Below are positions 12,163-38,925 of a DNA stretch of 64,000 bases, in pieces. Each line of letters opens with the position of its first letter. Positions within the stretch are counted from its first letter, which is position 1. A program made the translations under genes and the position numbers. The stretch spans positions 62,001-126,000 of the forward strand of contig CANRJC010000001.1 of assembly GCA_947630795.1 (NCBI GenBank), read 5' to 3'. The notes below the pieces were generated by a model. That model was not told the origin of the DNA. It was given only the letters and a program-made list of their open reading frames with translations, and did no database searches. This DNA comes from an uncultured Phascolarctobacterium sp. (GTDB lineage Bacteria; Bacillota; Negativicutes; Acidaminococcales; Acidaminococcaceae).

Positions 12163-13279
12163 GGGGCACCTTCTTTCGCAGGCAGCGGGGGATGGAGGCC
12201 TTTTCAACTTAATTATGCCACAGCCCCGGAGAAAGAGCAAATTTAATTTGCCTTTCAGCGGCAAAATGCAAAAGCAAAAATGCTCGCAACAGCAAGAGAG
12301 AAAGAAGGGGGGAGGCCTTTTAAGAGCTTGAGCAGTACTTACGATAGCTGCCTTGATGAAATTTGCCCGATCTTGCCGACTTTCACAAGCTTTTGGGAAG
12401 CGTATCGCGACGTCGGCAAGAGAAATTTTGCTTTTTCAAAAAATTTTTTAAACAGCCTCTTTGCCGTTTTCAAGGTGTTTTGCTTAAATTTTTTGCTTTC
12501 TGCGGAAATATCGAAGCAGTTCACGATGCCGGCAAAAAGAAATTTTGCTTTTTGCGGTGCGTATCCCTAGCCTTTTTACACTAAAACCTCGAAAATTCGG
12601 TGACTTTTTGCAAAAGCGTTATCCCGAAAAGGGATGATTTTGCTTTTTTGAAGGGTTTATGCAGTAATTGCGGTCATAACTGCCGCCGTTTTGCTTGATC
12701 TCACCCGATTTTGCTTATTTTTTGCAGTTTTTTTTTGAAAAGCACTACAATGCAGGCAAGAGAGAGCTTGCTTCTTAAAAGGATTTCGGGCGCGTTACCC
12801 GCCGTTTTAAGGGTGTTTTGCCTAGTTTTGTCGACTTCTGCAAATTTTTTTGCAGTGTGCTGCGAGGGAGGCGAGAGAAAAATTGCCTACTTTTGCGACT
12901 TCTGAAAATGTTATTGAGATGTGCTATGATGTGAAAGACCGAAAAAGCACTTTTGAGGGCGGGATTTTTAAGGACCCGTGACGGCTATATTGACGATTTG
13001 TCAGATCTGCAGGCATTTTAAGAAGAATGATTTGATAAAAACGGCCGGATATAGGCCCCGGAAGGTCTGCTTTTTTGTCGATCTTTTCGAAAGTGTGTTA
13101 TGACGCGCTCAAGCTGCCTTCGGTGATGAGAATTTTCGGGGCTCATGGAATTTCGGTTCTCCTGTCAGGGGTAATGGGCAAGATCGCTGGAATTTCGATC
13201 TGCTTTTGAAAGATGGTATGATAAGCTCGCAGAGTTTTTTCGAAGGCTGCTGAAGATCTTAAAAAAGAAGGAGTGAGCC
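12163..13279. repeat. 1.1-kb AT-rich non-coding block with degenerate long repeats
   Basis: I see no credible gene here. Two stretches align over about 105 bases: 12413-12520 and 12752-12855. Both begin GGCAAGAGA, continue to GCCGTTTT, then GGTGTTTTGC and end CTTTCTGC or CTTCTGCA; a partial third copy begins near 12527 (GCCGGCAAAAAG). Promoter-like boxes occur, for example TTGCAG-18-TACAAT (12723-12752) and CTGAAA-17-TATGAT (near 12902-12930). The block may be decayed duplicated sequence or an unrecognised ncRNA region. Confidence 0.55.
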
Positions 13280-13671
13280 ATGATGTCTTTTTTCAAAAAA
13301 ATTTTCGGCAAAGATCCTTTTCCGGAAGATGTCAAAACCTGCTACAGTTTGGGTTGCCGCTATATGAGGGGCGACGGGGTGGAGCAAAACTATACCAAGG
13401 CGGCCGAATTATTCAGGATAGCAGCAGAGCAAGGCTGGACGGAGAAACTTATATCCCCGAGTCGAGCATAGCAGATTTCAATTTCGATCACGACACATAT
13501 TATGTTGAGCTCGATAGAGAACTTGACTTTAAGGGCAGTTTTATCGCGATCGAAAGTAAAAAATGAGCAGGTCAAAACTATCTTAAGCTCGATGATGATG
13601 CGTACATATATATGAAAAGAACGGAGCAAGCTTCCGCCCTCGGGCAGCAAAATTCGAAAGGAGAGAAAAAT
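13280..13671 (+). pseudogene. Remnant of a Sel1-repeat protein
   Basis: The frame from the ATG at 13280, behind AAGAAGGAG, encodes a start plus one Sel1-like repeat (YSLGCRYMRGDGVEQNYTKA then AELFRIAAEQGW). It breaks at about 13440 and stops at 13471. A different frame then continues with protein-like sequence (SIADFNFDHDTYYVELDREL) to a stop at 13566, and the same frame goes on beyond it (AGQNYLKLDDDAYIYMK) to about 13614. This looks like the two ends of a larger gene joined by deletion or frameshift. Whether the short N-terminal peptide is made is unknown. Confidence 0.6.
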
Positions 13672-14400
13672 ATGTTGAAAAAAGTTTTGTGCTTAGCGGC
13701 GCTTTTGCTGGGGCTGGCTGCTTCTGCGGCAGCCGAAAGGCAGGAATGGGTGGACAGCACCTTCGATTTCGGCAAGCCACGACGCATTTACATTCAATTG
13801 GCGGTGCCGCCGGAGATCAACAACGGCATCTACGAACATCAGACCAGAGATATTTTTTACGGGAAGGTGTTCAAAGAAGTGGGGCCCAAGCTGGCGGGGA
13901 AGCAAAAGATATTCACCATCCGCGACTTTTCTCTTGCCATGCAGGCAAAAGGCATAGACCTGGCGCAGCTCTATAGGGAGCGGCCTCAGGAGGCCCAAAG
14001 GCTGGAGCAAGATTTTATAGCGGCCAATTGCGACTTGCAGCTGACTGCGGTGGTGCTGGGCTTCGGCGTGGGCACTCAGTACAGAGAGGGTTATTATCTT
14101 TCCCTGCCTGCCACCGATAATTTTCGTATGACCGATATGCGGGGCAACTTTGTTACAGGCAGCGTACAGAGCAGCAGGCAGCAATACATACCGAGCCGCA
14201 ATGTGCCCAATAACTACGCCTGCGTATTTTTCGAAGTGAAAGAGGTGGGCAGCGGCGCTAAGGTGTGGACGAGAGTGGACGACAGAGCGAGGTTGAACGC
14301 CACCGTCTTAAACAACACCAAGCCCGCCGACCTCTACGGCCGCATCGTAGGCAAATATTTTTCCGACTTCACCGGCAGATTCGGCAAAGGAGACAAGTGA
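13672..14400 (+). CDS. Exported protein of unknown function
   Basis: A 242-residue protein with a clear signal peptide (MLKKVLCLAALLLGLAAS, cleavage near AAA-ERQ) and no lipobox. The start at 13672 has an AAAGGAG RBS and puts the signal peptide at the N-terminus. The mature part is soluble, with features like IYIQLAVPPEINNG and YACVFFEVKEVGSGAKVWT that recall LpoB/CsgG-type periplasmic proteins, but I cannot assign a family. In a diderm it would be periplasmic. The repeat hairpin at 14479-14536 probably terminates its transcript. Confidence 0.72.
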   Translation: MLKKVLCLAALLLGLAASAAAERQEWVDSTFDFGKPRRIYIQLAVPPEINNGIYEHQTRDIFYGKVFKEVGPKLAGKQKIFTIRDFSLAMQAKGIDLAQLYRERPQEAQRLEQDFIAANCDLQLTAVVLGFGVGTQYREGYYLSLPATDNFRMTDMRGNFVTGSVQSSRQQYIPSRNVPNNYACVFFEVKEVGSGAKVWTRVDDRARLNATVLNNTKPADLYGRIVGKYFSDFTGRFGKGDK

Positions 14401-32718: not shown

Positions 32719-32746
32719 TTGCGGGGGGGTAATTATGTGATAGAAT
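32719..32746 (+). promoter_or_regulatory. G7-tract promoter P1 (peptide 1)
   Basis: TTGCGG, 16-base spacer, TAGAAT. Seven consecutive G (32723-32729) start in the last bases of the -35 box and run into the spacer. The same design is found at 33311 and 42572. Transcription from it gives a leader of about 260 bases before peptide 1. Confidence 0.7.
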
Positions 32747-32921
32747 ATAGACACAAAGCCCGTTGAGCGCGTGATCTTGCAGTAAGTATTCACGAGCAGC
32801 GGCAAGAGGAGAACGAAAGTTTCCTGTCGCGTAGAGCAGCACTTAGTGAAGTTATTTCTGTTTATTTGCACGTCCGAGCTGCAAGAAGGAAATCGCAGGA
32901 CAGCGGGGACGGCGACTTACA

Positions 32922-32973
32922 TCAAAGGTCCGTGCTTTGAAACAGGCGGAGTGTTGCGCCTATCGTTTCAAAG
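32922..32973 (+). promoter_or_regulatory. Alternative-hairpin element upstream of peptide 1
   Basis: Three segments: A TCAAAG (32922-32927), B CTTTGAAAC (32935-32943) and C GTTTCAAAG (32965-32973). B pairs with A (loop GTCCGTG) or with C, the latter extended by AGGCG/CGCCT and capped by GAGTGTTG. Peptide 2 has the same architecture with compensatory changes at 34200-34255. It may be an RNA attenuator-type switch or a DNA operator. Confidence 0.65.
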
Positions 32974-33012
32974 GAGTAAAGATAACAAGGTATAGAATAG
33001 GAGGGGCGGATC

Positions 33013-33132
33013 GTGGAAAACGAAAAAGAAAAGTATGAAAAACCGGAGATGGAGATCATCTATATCGAAGCCAACGATATCATCTTTGCCAGCGGCGGCG
33101 ATACAGCTGACGACGCGGCTGAATGTCCTTGA
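33013..33132 (+). CDS. Putative RiPP precursor peptide 1 (39 aa)
   Basis: A 39-residue peptide from GTG behind GGAGGGGCGGATC, the same 16 bases as before peptide 2. The leader KEKYEKPEMEII.IE.NDII then FASGGD is shared with peptide 2; the C-terminal part after Gly28-Gly29 is DTADDAAECP. The single Cys38 sits four residues after Asp34. Leader conservation, core variation, and a neighbouring PqqD-like chaperone and radical SAM/SPASM enzyme make a modified-peptide precursor the best reading. It has its own promoter and terminator. No product is known to me. Confidence 0.8.
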   Translation: MENEKEKYEKPEMEIIYIEANDIIFASGGDTADDAAECP

Positions 33133-33157
33133 AGAGCGAGAAATGAGAGTTTGCGTG

Positions 33158-33191
33158 AGGAGCAGGGAGCGACCCTGCTCCTTTGTCGTTT
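33158..33191 (+). terminator. Terminator after peptide 1
   Basis: Ten-base-pair stem AGGAGCAGGG/CCCTGCTCCT, 5-base loop, then TTGTCGTTTTT. The paralogous position after peptide 2 keeps the stem but not the T-run. Confidence 0.75.
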
Positions 33192-33491
33192 TTAACTCGA
33201 CCCCGCAAGCAGAAAAAAGCAGAGTAAAACAGATCACCGTTTCATTGTGGCAGTTTTTTTCGGGAAAAGGGCTGAGAGATTGAAGGATAAAAAATAAAAA
33301 TATAAAAAACTTGTGGGGGGGACAATTGTGTGCTAAAATGTAAACATAAAGCGCACACTGCTCAAAAGAAGAAAACATCCTTTTGTTTTAGGGCCCTGCG
33401 ATGGGAGCAGCTGACAAAGGTCTATGTTTTTACAGGCAGCAGAGGCACGCTCGTCTGTGTTGCTGTGAGCAAATAAAGTGAGGAGCATACT
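33192..33491. other. Gap with promoter P2 and leader of the RiPP operon
   Basis: An AT-rich stretch, promoter P2 (33311-33339), and then an approximately 150-base untranslated leader up to the pqqD-like gene. I found no third precursor peptide in it. Confidence 0.5.
33311..33339 (+). promoter_or_regulatory. G7-tract promoter P2 (pqqD-peptidase-peptide 2-rSAM-NTP operon)
   Basis: TTGTGG, 17-base spacer, TAAAAT preceded by TGC. Seven G at 33315-33321. Very similar to P1 (32719) and P3 (42572); the sequence after the -10 also resembles P1 (ACATAAAGC here, ACACAAAGC there). Confidence 0.72.
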
Positions 33492-33752
33492 ATGAAGTTG
33501 AAAGAATCCTTCGTCACCTATGCGGCCGACGGTCAGCATACTATGGTGGCAACGGAGGGCTTTTCCGGAATAGTGCGGAGCAACGGCACTGCCGCCTTTA
33601 TCATAGAAGCATTGAAGTCGCCCACTACTATAGAAGCCATCGTCGCAGCTATGGCAAAAAAATACGATGCACCGCAAGAAACGATCGCCGCAGATGTGGT
33701 CGAGATTATCGCCAAATTGCGCAGCATAGGCGCCATCGAGGAAGGCGATTGA
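33492..33752 (+). CDS. PqqD-like peptide chaperone (RiPP recognition element)
   Basis: An 86-residue protein of the PqqD fold, a small winged-helix domain that binds RiPP leader peptides and presents them to radical SAM enzymes. Family features are DGQHTMVATEGFSGIVRSNG at the start and EIIAKLRSIGAIEEG at the end. AGTGAGGAG precedes the ATG. It overlaps the next gene by 4 bases. The partner leaders are presumably the KEKYEKPEMEII peptides. Confidence 0.85.
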   Translation: MKLKESFVTYAADGQHTMVATEGFSGIVRSNGTAAFIIEALKSPTTIEAIVAAMAKKYDAPQETIAADVVEIIAKLRSIGAIEEGD

Positions 33753-34207
33753 ACCTTAGCTTTGAAGCAGTACTGGCTCGGGAAGGGCAGTTGGTGTACA
33801 CCTGCGTAGGAGCCAGTATGTTGCCTTTATTGCGGCAGCGGCGGGATCTGATCGTGATCGAGAAGCCGAGCAAACCTTTGCAACGCTATGATGTACCTCT
33901 TTATAGGCGGGCAGACGGAAAATATGTGTTGCACCGGATACTGGCGGTGCGAAAGGATGGGTATGTCCTTTGCGGCGACAACCAGTGGCGGCGGGAGCGC
34001 AGAGTTACCGACGAACAGGTGATAGGAGTGATGACCGCCGTCGTGCGAGATGGCGAGACCATCTTTGTGACCGATAAGCGCTATCGGCTCTATGTACATC
34101 TGTGGTGCGATCTCTTTTGGCTGCGGGCCGCTTTGTTGTGGTGCCTCAGCCTGCCCGGGCGCATCAAAAGGAAAATGCAGGGGAGCAAAGACAGCGACTC
34201 ATTTTAA
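33749..34207 (+). CDS. S24/S26-like small peptidase of the RiPP locus
   Basis: A 152-residue protein starting at TTG that overlaps the pqqD-like stop. The serine motif GASMLPLL (Ser23) followed by DLIVI and later YVLHRILAV (His62) and GDNQ resemble signal peptidase-type boxes. With His in the place of the bacterial Lys it is closer to the ER/SipW-type Ser-His arrangement. A hydrophobic C-terminal stretch (LWCDLFWLRAALLWCLSL) could anchor it to the membrane. A role in removing the leader of the two peptides is a reasonable inference, not shown. Confidence 0.72.
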   Translation: MNLSFEAVLAREGQLVYTCVGASMLPLLRQRRDLIVIEKPSKPLQRYDVPLYRRADGKYVLHRILAVRKDGYVLCGDNQWRRERRVTDEQVIGVMTAVVRDGETIFVTDKRYRLYVHLWCDLFWLRAALLWCLSLPGRIKRKMQGSKDSDSF

Positions 34208-34255
34208 AGGTCTGTGCTTTAAAATGGACAGGGTGTTGCGCTGTTCGTTTTAAAG
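34200..34255 (+). promoter_or_regulatory. Alternative-hairpin element upstream of peptide 2
   Basis: A CATTTTAAAG (34200-34209), B CTTTAAAATG (34217-34226), C from 34246 ending TTTTAAAG (34255). A-B form 10 pairs with loop GTCTGTG; B-C form an unbroken 15-bp stem with loop GGTGTTGCG. Segment A overlaps the peptidase stop codon. Compared with 32922-32973 the G-C pair changes to A-T in all three segments, keeping both pairings. Confidence 0.68.
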
Positions 34256-34293
34256 AATATAGATAATCGAAGAAAAAGCAGGAGGGGCGGATC

Positions 34294-34422
34294 GTGAAAA
34301 ATATCAAAGAAAAGTACGAAAAACCGGAGATGGAGATCATTTCTATCGAGGTAAACGATATCATCTTTGCCAGCGGCGGAGATCCGGGCGATGGCAGCGG
34401 TTGTGTGGGTGAGTGCCCTTGA
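34294..34422 (+). CDS. Putative RiPP precursor peptide 2 (42 aa)
   Basis: A 42-residue paralogue of peptide 1 from GTG with the identical GGAGGGGCGGATC RBS. Leader: MKNIKEKYEKPEMEIISIEV then NDIIFASGG; core: DPGDGSGCVGECP with Cys37 and Cys41. Asp33 lies four residues before Cys37, the same spacing as Asp34-Cys38 in peptide 1. It lies inside the operon between the peptidase and the radical SAM enzyme, so the enzyme and this substrate are co-expressed. Confidence 0.82.
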   Translation: MKNIKEKYEKPEMEIISIEVNDIIFASGGDPGDGSGCVGECP

Positions 34423-34447
34423 GGAGCGAGAAACGAGCGTTCGCCTG

Positions 34448-34476
34448 AGGAGCGGGGGGAGTATCCTCGCTCCTTT
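34448..34476 (+). promoter_or_regulatory. Read-through hairpin (attenuator-like) after peptide 2
   Basis: Stem AGGAGCGGGG/CCTCGCTCCT (one G-U pair) homologous to the terminator after peptide 1, but followed by TTGTCGTTGAG instead of a T-run. It should stabilise or partly terminate the peptide mRNA while letting polymerase reach the radical SAM gene. Confidence 0.55.
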
Positions 34477-34517
34477 GTCGTTGAGACGGAAAATATTTGA
34501 AGGGAGGAAGAGAAGAT

Positions 34518-35891
34518 ATGCGGCAACTGACCGAGCCTTACAAAATGGCCGAAAAAATTTTGGGGAAGCAGGAGACGGACGGATGCGATCTGTGGAGACT
34601 TACCACTCACTGCTTGCAGTCGGAAGAGGAAGAGGGAGTTCTGTTTTATAATTCTTTGACCGGCGAACTGTTGCTGTTGACTCGTGAGGAAGCGGCCATG
34701 CTGAAGGAATTACCGGGGCCTTTGCCGGAGGGAACGAAATATTTGGCTGAGCGGTGGTTTTTGCGGCCGCTGCAGGGGGATGATATGGCCTTGGCGATCC
34801 ACCTGCGGGAGATCGTGAAACAGTTGGCAAAACGTGCGGCACAAAAAAGATCGGCACTGACGAAGTATTTGATATTCACTACCACGGCCTGCAATGCCCG
34901 TTGCTTTTATTGTTTCGAAGCCGGGATGAAAAAACTTTCCATGACAGAAGAGACCGCAAGGGCGGCGGGGGACTACATCGCAGCTCATTGCGGCGGCAAG
35001 CAGGTGCAGTTGCGGTGGTTCGGAGGCGAGCCGACTTTGAACACGCGGGCCATAGACATCATCACTGCCCGCCTGCGTCAGAAAAATGTGAGATTCGCTT
35101 CTACGATGGTGAGTAACGGCTATTTGTTGGATGCCGCCTTGGCCCGAAGAGCCAAGGAGGAATGGAACATGGAGTGGGTGCAGATTACCCTCGACGGCAC
35201 AGAAGAGATCTACAATCAACGAAAAGCTTATGTGAGCGTTCAGGGCAGTCCCTTCCGCAAAGTGCTGGATAATATCGACTTATTGTTGGCGTCCGACGTC
35301 GAAGTTTGTGTGCGTTTGAATATGGACGAAGAAAACGAGCGAGATCTTTATGCGCTGTGCGATCAACTGGAAGAGCGATTCGGAGGAAAGCAGGGTTTCG
35401 GTATCTACGTGCGGGCCATCATCGACGATGCTCAGACGAGAAGGAGCGGTCGCATAGAAGAAACTCAGCAGGCTCTTGTGAGGAAGGTGCAGGCTCTGGT
35501 CGATCACATCCGACGCAAAGGCTTAGGGGTGAAAGAGAGACTCGGAAGCGGAGTAGTTACCCATTCGTGCAGGGCCGATAACGACAGCGAAGCCACCATC
35601 GCTCCCGACGGTGGACTGGGTAGCTGCGAATGCAAGATCGAAGATGGTATCTGGGGCAGCGTCTTTTCCGAAGAGAGAAACGAAGAAGTTTTGCAAAAAT
35701 GGAAGGAGCAAAGACCTACTGAAGAAATATGCAAAACTTGTTGGCTCTTCCCCCGCTGCGTTCGCTTAAAAAAGTGTTGGGTGCATTTGGAGCAGTGCTT
35801 GCCTACCGAACGATCGGATAGGGAGATCAAGACCAAACGCGGTATCCTAACGATTTATGACGATTGGAAAAGAAAACAGGCAGAGCAATGA
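34518..35891 (+). CDS. Radical SAM/SPASM peptide-maturation enzyme
   Basis: A 457-residue enzyme. Residues 1-110 form a leader-binding-like N-terminus; the radical SAM core has CNARCFYC (Cys125/129/132) and the glycine-rich FGGEPTLN; the C-terminal SPASM region has Cys351, 370, 372, 405, 408, 414, 420 and 427 for auxiliary iron-sulfur clusters. Such enzymes form thioether or C-C crosslinks in peptides. The ATG at 34518 has GGGAGG upstream; the longer frame from 34497 starts within the RBS. With two Cys-ending precursors and a PqqD-like protein nearby, crosslinking of those peptides is the likely job. Confidence 0.9.
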   Translation: MRQLTEPYKMAEKILGKQETDGCDLWRLTTHCLQSEEEEGVLFYNSLTGELLLLTREEAAMLKELPGPLPEGTKYLAERWFLRPLQGDDMALAIHLREIVKQLAKRAAQKRSALTKYLIFTTTACNARCFYCFEAGMKKLSMTEETARAAGDYIAAHCGGKQVQLRWFGGEPTLNTRAIDIITARLRQKNVRFASTMVSNGYLLDAALARRAKEEWNMEWVQITLDGTEEIYNQRKAYVSVQGSPFRKVLDNIDLLLASDVEVCVRLNMDEENERDLYALCDQLEERFGGKQGFGIYVRAIIDDAQTRRSGRIEETQQALVRKVQALVDHIRRKGLGVKERLGSGVVTHSCRADNDSEATIAPDGGLGSCECKIEDGIWGSVFSEERNEEVLQKWKEQRPTEEICKTCWLFPRCVRLKKCWVHLEQCLPTERSDREIKTKRGILTIYDDWKRKQAEQ

Positions 35892-37072
35892 GAGAAGAAG
35901 GCACAGGGGCCGCATACAAAAATTTATACGGTTTATTGGGGGCCTGGTGCAACGGCGTAAAGTGGGAAGAGAAAGAAGTGCCGGACTTCAGAGCACTCTT
36001 TTATGTTGCGAAACGGCATAAATTGACAGCAGCTCTTTATTTGGCCTTGGAACAGGCGCAGCTTTTGGACAGCTGCCCTCCCGAACTCGCTGCCCGTATG
36101 AAGGAAGTAAAGCTGCTCGCAGAGCGGCGAGCGATACTGATGGATGCAGAGCGTCGGCATTTGTCGGACTTTATGGAAGAGAAGGGCATTTGGCATCTTC
36201 CTTTGAAAGGCATCATCCTTAAAAATTTTTGGCCTTTCTCCTCTGCGCGGGAGATGGCGGACAACGACATCCTCTTCGATTGTGAGGCTTGGAAGACAAT
36301 CCGTTCTTACATGAGGGGGCGGGGCTACTGGGAAGATCGGGATCCAATAGCGAAGGGGGCCCACGATACTTACATCAAGCCGCCCTGCTATCGTTTCGAG
36401 ATGCATCCATTTCTCTTTGCCAAATCTCAGGGTACCTTGGCCGTTTATTATGAAAATGTAAAGGAGCGGCTGCGGCCGGATCCGGGCAAAGTTTTTGCTT
36501 TTCGTTTCGGCGATGAAGATTTTTATGTATATTTTTTAGCTCACGCCTACAAACATTATCGGCGCGGCGGTATCGGGGTGCGCACTCTGCTGGATATTTA
36601 TCTCTATCGTCGCCAAAAGACGAATATGGATGAAACATATATCGCCGCCGAAGCGGCCAAGTTGGGGATCGGCAGCTTTGAACCTGTGTGCCGTTCTCTC
36701 GCTTGCAAATTATTTTCTTCACACACGCAAACTGCGGAATTGACGGAGGAGGAAGCCGATACTTTGGCCTATATGGAAGAAGCCGGCGCTTACGGCACTT
36801 TGGCCCAAAAAGCGGCAGCGAAGCTGAACGAATTGCGGGAAGAAGGAGAAAAGGTCGGAACACGATTGAAGCTGCGCTATGTTTTTCGCAGGCTCTTCCC
36901 GAAACAGGAGTGGTATCGGGCATATGTCCCTTTCGTATACCGCCATCGCTGGGCTCTGCCTTTTTATTGGCTGTATCGGTTGTTCAGAGGTGTCGTCCTC
37001 AACGGCGAGCGCAATCGAAAAATGTTGCGGGCCGTTTTGGCCGTCTCCGACAGATCCGGCATAAATAAGTGA
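35888..37072 (+). CDS. NTP_transf_5 family protein of the RiPP locus
   Basis: A 394-residue member of the nucleotidyltransferase-like family PF14907. The defining block runs from Pro105: PLKGIILKNFWPF, then Arg121 and DNDILFD (Asp126-Asp131). Similar proteins recur in lasso-peptide and other RiPP clusters, where their reaction is mostly unknown. The ATG at 35888 overlaps the radical SAM stop (ATGA); a TTG at 35864 is an alternative. A weak hairpin (37086-37104) follows. Confidence 0.8.
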   Translation: MREEGTGAAYKNLYGLLGAWCNGVKWEEKEVPDFRALFYVAKRHKLTAALYLALEQAQLLDSCPPELAARMKEVKLLAERRAILMDAERRHLSDFMEEKGIWHLPLKGIILKNFWPFSSAREMADNDILFDCEAWKTIRSYMRGRGYWEDRDPIAKGAHDTYIKPPCYRFEMHPFLFAKSQGTLAVYYENVKERLRPDPGKVFAFRFGDEDFYVYFLAHAYKHYRRGGIGVRTLLDIYLYRRQKTNMDETYIAAEAAKLGIGSFEPVCRSLACKLFSSHTQTAELTEEEADTLAYMEEAGAYGTLAQKAAAKLNELREEGEKVGTRLKLRYVFRRLFPKQEWYRAYVPFVYRHRWALPFYWLYRLFRGVVLNGERNRKMLRAVLAVSDRSGINK

Positions 37073-37153
37073 AGAAGAAATGATCACCCCCGGAAACTTT
37101 CGGGGAAGGGCCTGCCCGCAAAGCGCTGCGCTTCTTAGGTCGGCCCGTTTTCT

Positions 37154-37182
37154 TTGCTTTTGTGCCTTTACTGTGCTAGAAT
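37154..37182 (+). promoter_or_regulatory. Promoter of the ABC exporter gene
   Basis: TTGCTT, 17-base spacer, TAGAAT with upstream TGC. It lacks the G7 tract of P1 and P2, so the exporter may be expressed separately. Confidence 0.6.
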
Positions 37183-37215
37183 AAAAACAAATCTTGCAGT
37201 CTGGGGGGCTGGGCC

Positions 37216-38925
37216 GTGTTCAAGACCATTTGCGCTTTGATCGGCAAAAAAAGAAAACGGCAGATGTTGACACGCCTGCCTGCTATGCTGTTGGCCTCTC
37301 TTTTGGAGATGGCGGGCTTGGCCCTTATCGCCTCGGTGTGTGCGGCTTTGGTCAGCGGAGCTTGGGCCAAGGAAAATTCCCCCATCATGGTGCTTTACAA
37401 CTATTTCGGCTTTCAGTCCAAGGGAGAGTTCATCACGGCTATCTTGTCGGTGATGATTGCTGTCTATGTGTTCAAACTGTTTTATCTCTCTTGGGAAAAT
37501 TACATGGCGGCCAAGTTCGTCCGCATTGTTCGAGGGGAGATGGCAACGGCTCTGTGTCGGCGCATAATCCGTAGTCCTTACGATTTTTATATCAAACACA
37601 GCACCGCTCAGATGCAAAATTTACTGGGGCAGGATACCCTGCAGTTTTCCGTAGGCTTGGATGCTTATATGCAGCTCTTTATGGAATTGCCTGTGGCTCT
37701 GGGCATGGTGGCCTGCCTTTTTTGGATCGATCCCATGATGACTGCCTTTGCCACCGGCGGCCTCGTAGTGCTGATGATCGTCATCCGCATCGTTTTAAAG
37801 CGGCCCATCAAAAGCGCCTCGCGACGGCAGCGAAAGTCCGGCAGGTCGCGGTGGAAGTGGCTCCACTATATAGCGGGTGGCGTTAAAGATATCAAGGTGG
37901 GCGGGCACGAGGACCTCTTTGAGAAAAAATTTGCCGAAGCCGAAGCCGATTTCGACCGCTCCGACTATTTGAGCCGCTTCTGGAATAAAATGCCCACGCT
38001 CTTCATCGAAAGCGTCATGGTGCTGTCGGTGCTGTTTTACATCCTCTACTTGAACCTCAGCGACAGAAACATGCTGCTCTATCTGCCGGGCCTTTCCGCC
38101 TTGGCTTGGACAGCGGTGCGCCTCTTGCCGGCCTGCAGCAGGATCAACAACAGCCTTACCCAAATAAGTTACAGCAGAGCATCCGTGGAAGCTGTGGCCG
38201 CTGTCTTTAAAGAGACAGCGGAGGCCGAGCTGGTCATCGATGAAAAAGCAGCATCGGTAAGCGATGGCATCGAGTTGCGTGATCTCACCTTTACTTATGA
38301 AGGAAAGAACGAAGCAGTGTTAAAAGATGTGAGCATGAAGATACCCGCAGGCTCCGCTGTGGGGCTGGTGGGCCTTTCCGGAGCGGGAAAGACCACGCTG
38401 CTGGACATCATGCTGGGCCTTTTGCATCCGCAACATGGGGAAGTGTTGATCGGCGGTGTCCCCATCGACGAGTGCCGTAGAAATTTTTGGCGGCAAACAG
38501 CTTATGTGCCCCAAAATACTTTTCTTTTGAACGATACGGTGCGCAGCAATGTGGCCATGGGCGTTCCTTCCGAAGAGATAGACGATGAGCGGGTGTGGGG
38601 GGCACTGAAAAAAGCGGCTTTAGCCGAGGCCGTCGGCCACCTGCCCGGAGGGCTGGATACGCAAGTGGGCGAGCGGGGCCTTCGTCTCTCCGGCGGTGAG
38701 CGTCAGCGGCTGGGGATAGCACGAGCCCTGTATCGAGATTGCCCCGTACTGGTCTTCGATGAGCCCACTTCCGCTTTAGATGCCCAAACGGAAGCGGAGG
38801 TAGTGAAAGTCATCGGCAATCTAAAAGGAGAGAGGACGCTCATCCTCGTTTCTCACAGCGAGGCGGCCGTTTCTGTTTGCGACCGCATCTATCGGCTCAG
38901 CAGTGGCAGAGCTCAACTGCAATGA
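37216..38925 (+). CDS. ABC exporter (fused membrane and ATPase domains) of the RiPP locus
   Basis: A 569-residue half-transporter: membrane domain (residues about 15-310, six predicted helices) and ATPase domain with Walker A GLSGAGKTT, signature LSGGERQR and Walker B VLVFDEPTSALD. It has no N-terminal C39 peptidase, so leader removal must be done by another protein, possibly the S24/S26-like one. The GTG start follows a G-rich RBS. Export of the mature peptide is inferred from position. Confidence 0.88.
   Translation: MFKTICALIGKKRKRQMLTRLPAMLLASLLEMAGLALIASVCAALVSGAWAKENSPIMVLYNYFGFQSKGEFITAILSVMIAVYVFKLFYLSWENYMAAKFVRIVRGEMATALCRRIIRSPYDFYIKHSTAQMQNLLGQDTLQFSVGLDAYMQLFMELPVALGMVACLFWIDPMMTAFATGGLVVLMIVIRIVLKRPIKSASRRQRKSGRSRWKWLHYIAGGVKDIKVGGHEDLFEKKFAEAEADFDRSDYLSRFWNKMPTLFIESVMVLSVLFYILYLNLSDRNMLLYLPGLSALAWTAVRLLPACSRINNSLTQISYSRASVEAVAAVFKETAEAELVIDEKAASVSDGIELRDLTFTYEGKNEAVLKDVSMKIPAGSAVGLVGLSGAGKTTLLDIMLGLLHPQHGEVLIGGVPIDECRRNFWRQTAYVPQNTFLLNDTVRSNVAMGVPSEEIDDERVWGALKKAALAEAVGHLPGGLDTQVGERGLRLSGGERQRLGIARALYRDCPVLVFDEPTSALDAQTEAEVVKVIGNLKGERTLILVSHSEAAVSVCDRIYRLSSGRAQLQ

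Follow-up and report, generated by a model that had tools for sequence, protein, structure and literature searches.

What does a compact bacterial locus that joins two short peptide genes to a radical SAM enzyme produce, and is its gene set a new one? The locus lies in a 64,000-nucleotide stretch of the genome of an uncultured Phascolarctobacterium (the window) and comprises seven genes on the + strand, none of them disrupted, flanked by a tRNA cluster and xpt. Their order is A1, RRE, peptidase, A2, radical SAM enzyme, NTP_transf_5 protein and ABC exporter, where A1 and A2 are precursor peptides and RRE denotes the recognition element of ribosomally synthesized and post-translationally modified peptides (RiPPs). 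The locus very probably serves to produce, modify, trim and export the two small peptides. It is probably a RiPP cluster built on the chassis of the linear polyphosphorylated peptides (LPPs), from which the HprK-like kinase would have been lost and to which a radical SAM/SPASM maturase would have been added. A preliminary description of this DNA had reported two short peptides with a common leader and five further genes between the tRNA cluster and xpt, all of which are present and intact. It had also proposed that the five proteins belong together in a RiPP-type cluster with A1 and A2 as precursors, and both proposals are borne out, the former by conserved combinations of the genes in other genomes and the latter by conservation in a sister genome and by recurrence of the leader beside homologous genes.

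Judged by their sequences, A1 and A2 are genuine precursors, beyond chance open reading frames (ORFs), because the sister genome retains them both, their leader is unique in the host genome, and the leader recurs beside homologous genes elsewhere. Both ORFs start with GTG codons, each preceded by AGGAGGGGCGG, and they are paralogues (a 104-nt repeat with 88% identity) with a common leader that contains YEKPEM in both, in agreement with the YxxPx[hydrophobic] pattern of LPP leaders. In the sister genome, a rabbit-gut metagenome-assembled genome (MAG) of an uncultured Phascolarctobacterium, the entire locus including both precursors is kept at ~97% nucleotide identity; A1 is unchanged, and A2 differs by one synonymous and one non-synonymous change. 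A degenerate pattern for the leader occurs twice in the 1.9 Mb host genome, only at A1 and A2. The preliminary description had suggested looking for the leader, and its co-occurrence with the five proteins, in other genomes, and leaders of the A1 type do adjoin homologous genes in distant Bacillota (loci L038, with two precursors, L113, L156, L157, L034 and L049). The consensus, approximate and variable, is [YF]-x-x-P-x-[hydrophobic] ... [DN]-[IV]-I-x-[A/T/S]-S-G.

LPPs were described in 2026 from the lpp cluster of Paenibacillus alginolyticus, which encodes the precursor LppA with a YxxP leader, the HprK-like kinase LppK, the RRE LppB, the SipW-like peptidase LppS, the exporter LppD and the NTP transferase LppN (PMC13381572). 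There, core Ser is phosphorylated by LppK and polyphosphorylation is the defining step, deletion of lppN causes no detectable change, and the final product is not given (PMC13381572). Every component of the window locus but the radical SAM enzyme has a counterpart among the experimentally studied LPP components: both systems have a YxxP leader, a discrete RRE with conserved Asn/Asp contacts, a SipW-like serine leader peptidase, an NTP transferase and an MsbA-like exporter, and neither has a macrolactam cyclase. The preliminary description had regarded the gene set as undescribed, which does not hold for the combination of RRE, SipW-like (S24/S26) peptidase, NTP_transf_5 protein, MsbA-like exporter and YxxP precursor, since this is the LPP core (PMC13381572). 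Nor are NTP_transf_5-type proteins without precedent in RiPP loci: in pseudomycoidin, PsmN is needed for attaching hexose to phosphorylated Ser (PMC9266682). The radical SAM branch is unreported in the main text of the LPP paper, where the term 'radical SAM' does not occur (PMC13381572).

The likeness in recognition and cleavage extends to individual residues. In a profile search of the PDB the product of the second gene, a PqqD-like protein that had been proposed for just such a check, matches TbiB1 (5v1u), LppB (9x8z) and TfuB1 (6jx3), and in the HMM (hidden Markov model) alignment to 9x8z its N31 and D68 align with the leader-binding N33 and D70 of LppB; N31 is kept in 64 and D68 in 57 of 69 homologues. 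The peptidase has a sub-threshold Pfam match to Peptidase_S24 (E 0.019), and a sequence search for solved structures related to it or to the NTP_transf_5 protein returned nothing meaningful. Its AlphaFold2 (AF2) model (pLDDT, the AF2 confidence score, 92) has the UmuD/LexA/signal-peptidase fold, with Foldseek matches to UmuD', SPC-A, SipA, SpsB and LexA, and it is 60-68% identical to SpI, the peptidase of loci with an RRE and a kinase. Residues S23, H62, D77 and E83 are invariant across 73 homologues, in line with the Ser/His/acid set of LPP peptidases; LppS depends on S29, H68 and D93 (PMC13381572), the last of which may correspond to D77 or to E83. LppS cuts after T-1, requires LppB and depends on conserved residues in positions -3 to -1 (PMC13381572). 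Because of that last requirement, and because a small residue precedes S-G in the same leader region (A in A1 and A2, T and A in L038, S in L034), a cut at [A/T/S]-SG is suggested, which would yield SGGDTADDAAECP from A1 and SGGDPGDGSGCVGECP from A2.

Unlike LPP clusters, the window locus has an added radical SAM/SPASM enzyme and no HprK-like kinase, its cores carry Cys, its leader ends in NDIIFA-SG as opposed to FET, and loci of its type occur in Negativicutes and Oscillospirales. The kinase was not found in the locus or the whole genome, a near-complete 1.9 Mb draft of 51 contigs (completeness 100), by protein query and PF07475, nor was it found at the locus of the sister genome. Because the kinase was looked for and not found, we do not class the cluster as LPP, yet it resembles LPPs in recognition and cleavage. 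That the locus follows the LPP pathway proper, with the conserved Ser phosphorylated by a kinase encoded elsewhere, the NTP_transf_5 protein acting on phospho-Ser and the radical SAM enzyme serving as accessory tailoring, is improbable in view of that absence from a near-complete genome and from the sister locus, even though the chassis is present, both precursors retain the Ser of [A/T/S]-SG, and the related radical SAM loci L038, L113, L156, L157, L172, L174 and L175 have a kinase. Among loci with an SpI-like peptidase, seven (L097, L107, L122, L132, L134, L137 and L138) contain NTP_transf_5 with no kinase detected within ~8 kb; therefore the NTP_transf_5 protein may not always need phospho-Ser.

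A lasso peptide cluster is suggested by the YxxP leader, the lasso-B1-like RRE and the presence of NTP_transf_5-type proteins in lasso clusters; indeed, clusters of the paeninodin/pseudomycoidin type share a Y/WxxP leader with a B1-type RRE, a nucleotidyltransferase-like tailoring protein and an ABC exporter with the window locus. Those clusters differ in having a B2 Cys peptidase, a macrolactam synthetase and a kinase; the window locus has none of these and has a serine peptidase instead. The B2 transglutaminase-like peptidase (PF13471) was not found in the genome, the locus contains no cyclase, and Asn_synthase-like (PF00733) sequences turn up only on other contigs, as partial or weak matches. 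With the B2 peptidase and the macrolactam cyclase absent, this candidate was rejected and can be considered refuted for the window locus.

What, then, does the radical SAM enzyme act on? The 457-residue protein most likely starts at ATG 34518, which is preferred over TTG 34497. Its CX3CX2C motif and seven SPASM cysteines (C351, C370, C405, C408, C414, C420 and C427) are invariant across 25 homologues, and the top fold match of its AF2 model (pLDDT 90) is the thioether-forming CteB (5why/5wgg), followed by TigE. It scores below all curated NCBIfam cut-offs shown, the best being TIGR04463 (139 of 525 bits), with PapB at 84 of 340 bits and SCIFF at 51.5 of 425 bits. The enzyme resembles the thioether-forming SPASM maturases (CteB/SCIFF and PapB of the ranthipeptides) and the TIGR04463 family in its CX3CX2C and SPASM Cys pattern, in the CteB fold and in the Cys-bearing cores that accompany it, but it lies far under the cut-offs of those families, goes with a different leader, and has a discrete RRE and a SipW-like peptidase as partners.

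The cores themselves point to Cys. Among leader-type precursors, collected with one set of filters, core Cys is present in 15 of 16 beside a window-type radical SAM enzyme, in all four beside the second, unrelated radical SAM type and in none of 10 at loci free of radical SAM genes, that is, in 19/20 versus 0/10 (Fisher p 3.7e-7, which overstates the evidence, since precursors from shared genera are not independent counts and the ORF of L112, among the ten radical SAM-free ones, looks spurious); the radical SAM-free sample is small because most such SpI loci yielded no precursor with the filters used. The direction of the association holds over several genera and two enzyme lineages. A1 has one core Cys and A2 has two. 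The A1 core consists of S, G, D, T, A, E, C and P only, and its lack of aromatic residues, Lys and His makes aromatic cyclophane or Lys-Trp chemistry less likely. The SPASM enzyme probably modifies core Cys, most likely through a thioether to a nearby residue, which would give a crosslinked product.

Genes homologous to those of LPP clusters recur together with radical SAM genes in L038, L113, L156, L157 and further loci of Oscillospirales. Of 394 genomes sampled from one clostridial order, 112 encode an SpI-like peptidase; in 60 such loci that were retrieved, an RRE is present in 52, a kinase in 40 and a window-type radical SAM enzyme in one (L113). By profile search the window-type enzyme occurs in 20 of 395 genomes of one family. 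Within the stretches retrieved for 22 loci with this radical SAM subfamily (L038, L113, L156-L175), several of which end at contig ends, a kinase is seen in 13 and an SpI-like peptidase in eight. L038 and L156, tandem radical SAM loci from Oscillospiraceae-type MAGs, are the closest relatives, with the order kinase-RRE-peptidase-A-radical SAM-radical SAM-NTP_transf_5; L038 shares with the window the succession RRE-peptidase-A-radical SAM-NTP_transf_5-ABC, and its leader, RRE, peptidase and radical SAM proteins are 47-70% identical to those of the window. Unlike the window, both retain the kinase and two radical SAM copies. L113 and L157 have the order A-radical SAM-RRE-NTP_transf_5-kinase-peptidase. 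In the NTP_transf_5 protein, G116, R129, D133 and D135 of the K/G/R/DxD residues are invariant in 23 homologues and K115 is kept in 22. The NCBIfam models for MsbA and PglK are among the top matches of the ABC exporter, whose counterpart in L038 occupies the same position (57% identity).

Some observations weigh against a radical SAM cluster on the LPP chassis, beyond the overstated p-value. The radical SAM subfamily is not tied to the SipW-like peptidase alone, given that ~8 of the 22 loci show it and other settings occur as well, and the first precursor of L038 is without core Cys. Cleavage of LPP precursors is poor without phosphorylation (PMC13381572), and without a kinase the NTP_transf_5 protein lacks an evident target. 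PapB links Cys to Asp/Glu and tolerates Cys-Xn-Asp with n = 0-6 (PMC9413430); at such Cys-to-acid spacing we counted 20 of 23, as compared with 18.2 expected in shuffled cores (p 0.27), so that the sequences give no support to a PapB-like acceptor. A PapB-type motif with fixed Cys-X3-Asp/Glu spacing was likewise rejected, with no excess over shuffles. Finally, we infer the reactions and the product from the genes present, their motifs and folds, their recurrence and the link between radical SAM enzymes and core Cys. The chemical diversity of SPASM enzymes, the failure to reach any NCBIfam equivalog cut-off and the lack of conserved acceptor spacing would also suit another SPASM reaction (epimerization, decarboxylation or a backbone change), with Cys serving for a disulfide or metal binding. 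We find this doubtful, as core Cys follows the presence of radical SAM enzymes in two lineages and the closest fold is that of CteB.

If the window does hold an LPP chassis with a radical SAM maturase, the RRE protein would capture the YxxPxM leader of A1 and A2, as its conserved contact residues suggest, and the SPASM enzyme, aided by its own RRE-like N-terminus, would modify the cores at Cys. The SipW-like peptidase, with the leader presented by the RRE, would then cut beside the conserved [A/T/S]-SG, after which the NTP_transf_5 protein may add a secondary group and the ABC pump would export the product. A role in competition or signalling is a guess. We propose only tentatively, as somewhat less than an even prospect, that such loci form a separate RiPP class, defined by a YxxP leader, processing by a SipW-like peptidase, a primary SPASM-made Cys thioether and an NTP_transf_5 protein acting without prior phosphorylation (here kinase-free), and horizontally spread in gut Bacillota.

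Features of the locus, in window coordinates
Feature	Position	Strand	Basis or remark
Promoter-like element, copy 1 (GGGGGGGTAATTATGTGATAGAAT), G-run	32723-32746	+	upstream of A1
Degenerate copy of peptidase gene 3' end (duplication scar)	32886-32934	+	in front of A1
5'-leader hairpin before A1	32935-32973	+	fold z -2.5
Precursor A1, 39 aa	33013-33132	+	strong Shine-Dalgarno sequence; MENEKEKYEKPEMEIIYIEANDIIFA-SGGDTADDAAECP, YxxP leader, predicted core after dash
Terminator-like hairpin after A1	33157-33183	+	fold analysis
Promoter-like element, copy 2	33316-33339	+	upstream of RRE gene
Discrete RRE, PqqD-like, LppB/lasso-B1-like	33492-33752	+	Pfam PqqD E 2.7e-16
SipW/LppS-like (S24/S26 clan) leader peptidase	33749-34207	+	TTG start; AF2 fold, invariant residues
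5'-leader hairpin before A2	34217-34255	+	fold z -6.5
Precursor A2, 42 aa	34294-34422	+	A1 paralogue; MKNIKEKYEKPEMEIISIEVNDIIFA-SGGDPGDGSGCVGECP, predicted core after dash
Terminator-like hairpin after A2, weaker; attenuator before radical SAM gene	34447-34475	+	fold analysis
Radical SAM/SPASM maturase, RRE-like at its N-terminus	34518-35891	+	457 aa; Radical_SAM E 1.7e-13 (Pfam)
NTP_transf_5 nucleotidyltransferase, LppN/PsmN-like by context	35888-37072	+	Pfam E 1.2e-35
MsbA/PglK-type ABC exporter, LppD-like, without peptidase domain	37216-38925	+	Pfam ABC_membrane and ABC_tran

The layout of the locus bears on its expression. The stop codon of the RRE gene overlaps the TTG start of the peptidase gene at 33749 (TTGA), and that of the radical SAM gene overlaps the ATG start of the NTP_transf_5 gene at 35888 (ATGA), which suggests that both gene pairs are translationally coupled. 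The promoter-like pattern has two matches in the whole genome, both within the locus. In the hairpins before A1 and A2 the stem letters differ between the copies with pairing retained, and an Rfam search of these leaders gave no family matches. This arrangement of promoters and hairpins would yield more precursor than enzyme.

As to the history of the locus, the sequence before A1 (32886-32973) repeats positions 34168-34255 (88 nt, 74%), which hold the end of the peptidase gene, and A1 therefore appears to have arisen through duplication of a segment comprising that end and the A gene. In the window A1 occupies the position that the kinase has in L038 and L156, so its duplication was perhaps part of the rearrangement that removed the kinase. 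In the radical SAM tree the window protein falls within a five-row clade (SH-aLRT branch support 99) with the tandem pairs of L038 and L156, and because of this nesting the simplest reading would be that an Oscillospiraceae-type donor was the source of a transfer and that one radical SAM copy was lost. The losses relative to L038 and L156 and the duplication scar before A1 might also mark a degenerating transferred cluster, productless in this host, in which the precursor was duplicated by accident. This is very unlikely, since the frames are all open, the catalytic residues are intact, both precursors are kept at 3% divergence, and the duplicated promoters and 5' hairpins are retained. Among 100 relatives the locus is present in the sister genome only, which rejects the notion of widespread identical loci in close relatives; the remaining radical SAM matches there are unrelated (20-36% identity). 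A search for plasmid or virus carriage of the locus found distant matches only, and comparison of the xpt region in relatives met neighbourhoods too dissimilar for a clean empty site.

Several other loci combine similar genes in different ways. A second LPP-like type is seen in L051 (3-12 kb), L052 (2-10 kb), L053 (10-14 kb), L054 (5-10 kb) and L055 (2-8 kb), where a radical SAM enzyme unrelated to that of the window, PqqE/AhbD-like by the NCBIfam scores of L054, adjoins an RRE, a kinase and a SipW-like peptidase; the precursors of L051-L054 have two core Cys each (e.g. ...FENVFTKCNKGNDGPQKCSFIPGW...). In L056 a FibroRumin-type radical SAM gene (12344-13789; TIGR04136, 244 of 400 bits) lies ~6 kb upstream of a canonical LPP locus; between the two stand large genes for surface proteins, one with Cadherin-like and F5/8C domains. 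The radical SAM loci L165 and L167-L170, most of them with a kinase, have MKYxxPxAELxxLE leaders and Cys/Asp/Glu-rich cores, and a SipW-like peptidase was not detected in them.

The radical SAM branch suggests that one recognition-and-cleavage chassis, consisting of a YxxP leader, an RRE and a SipW-like peptidase, can bear different primary modifications, and judging by the peptidase counts in the sampled order, that chassis is common in gut bacteria. The compact, kinase-free version with its seven genes would be a convenient object for testing whether the NTP_transf_5 protein needs phospho-Ser, and whether radical SAM modification can take the place of phosphorylation in licensing cleavage by a SipW-like peptidase.

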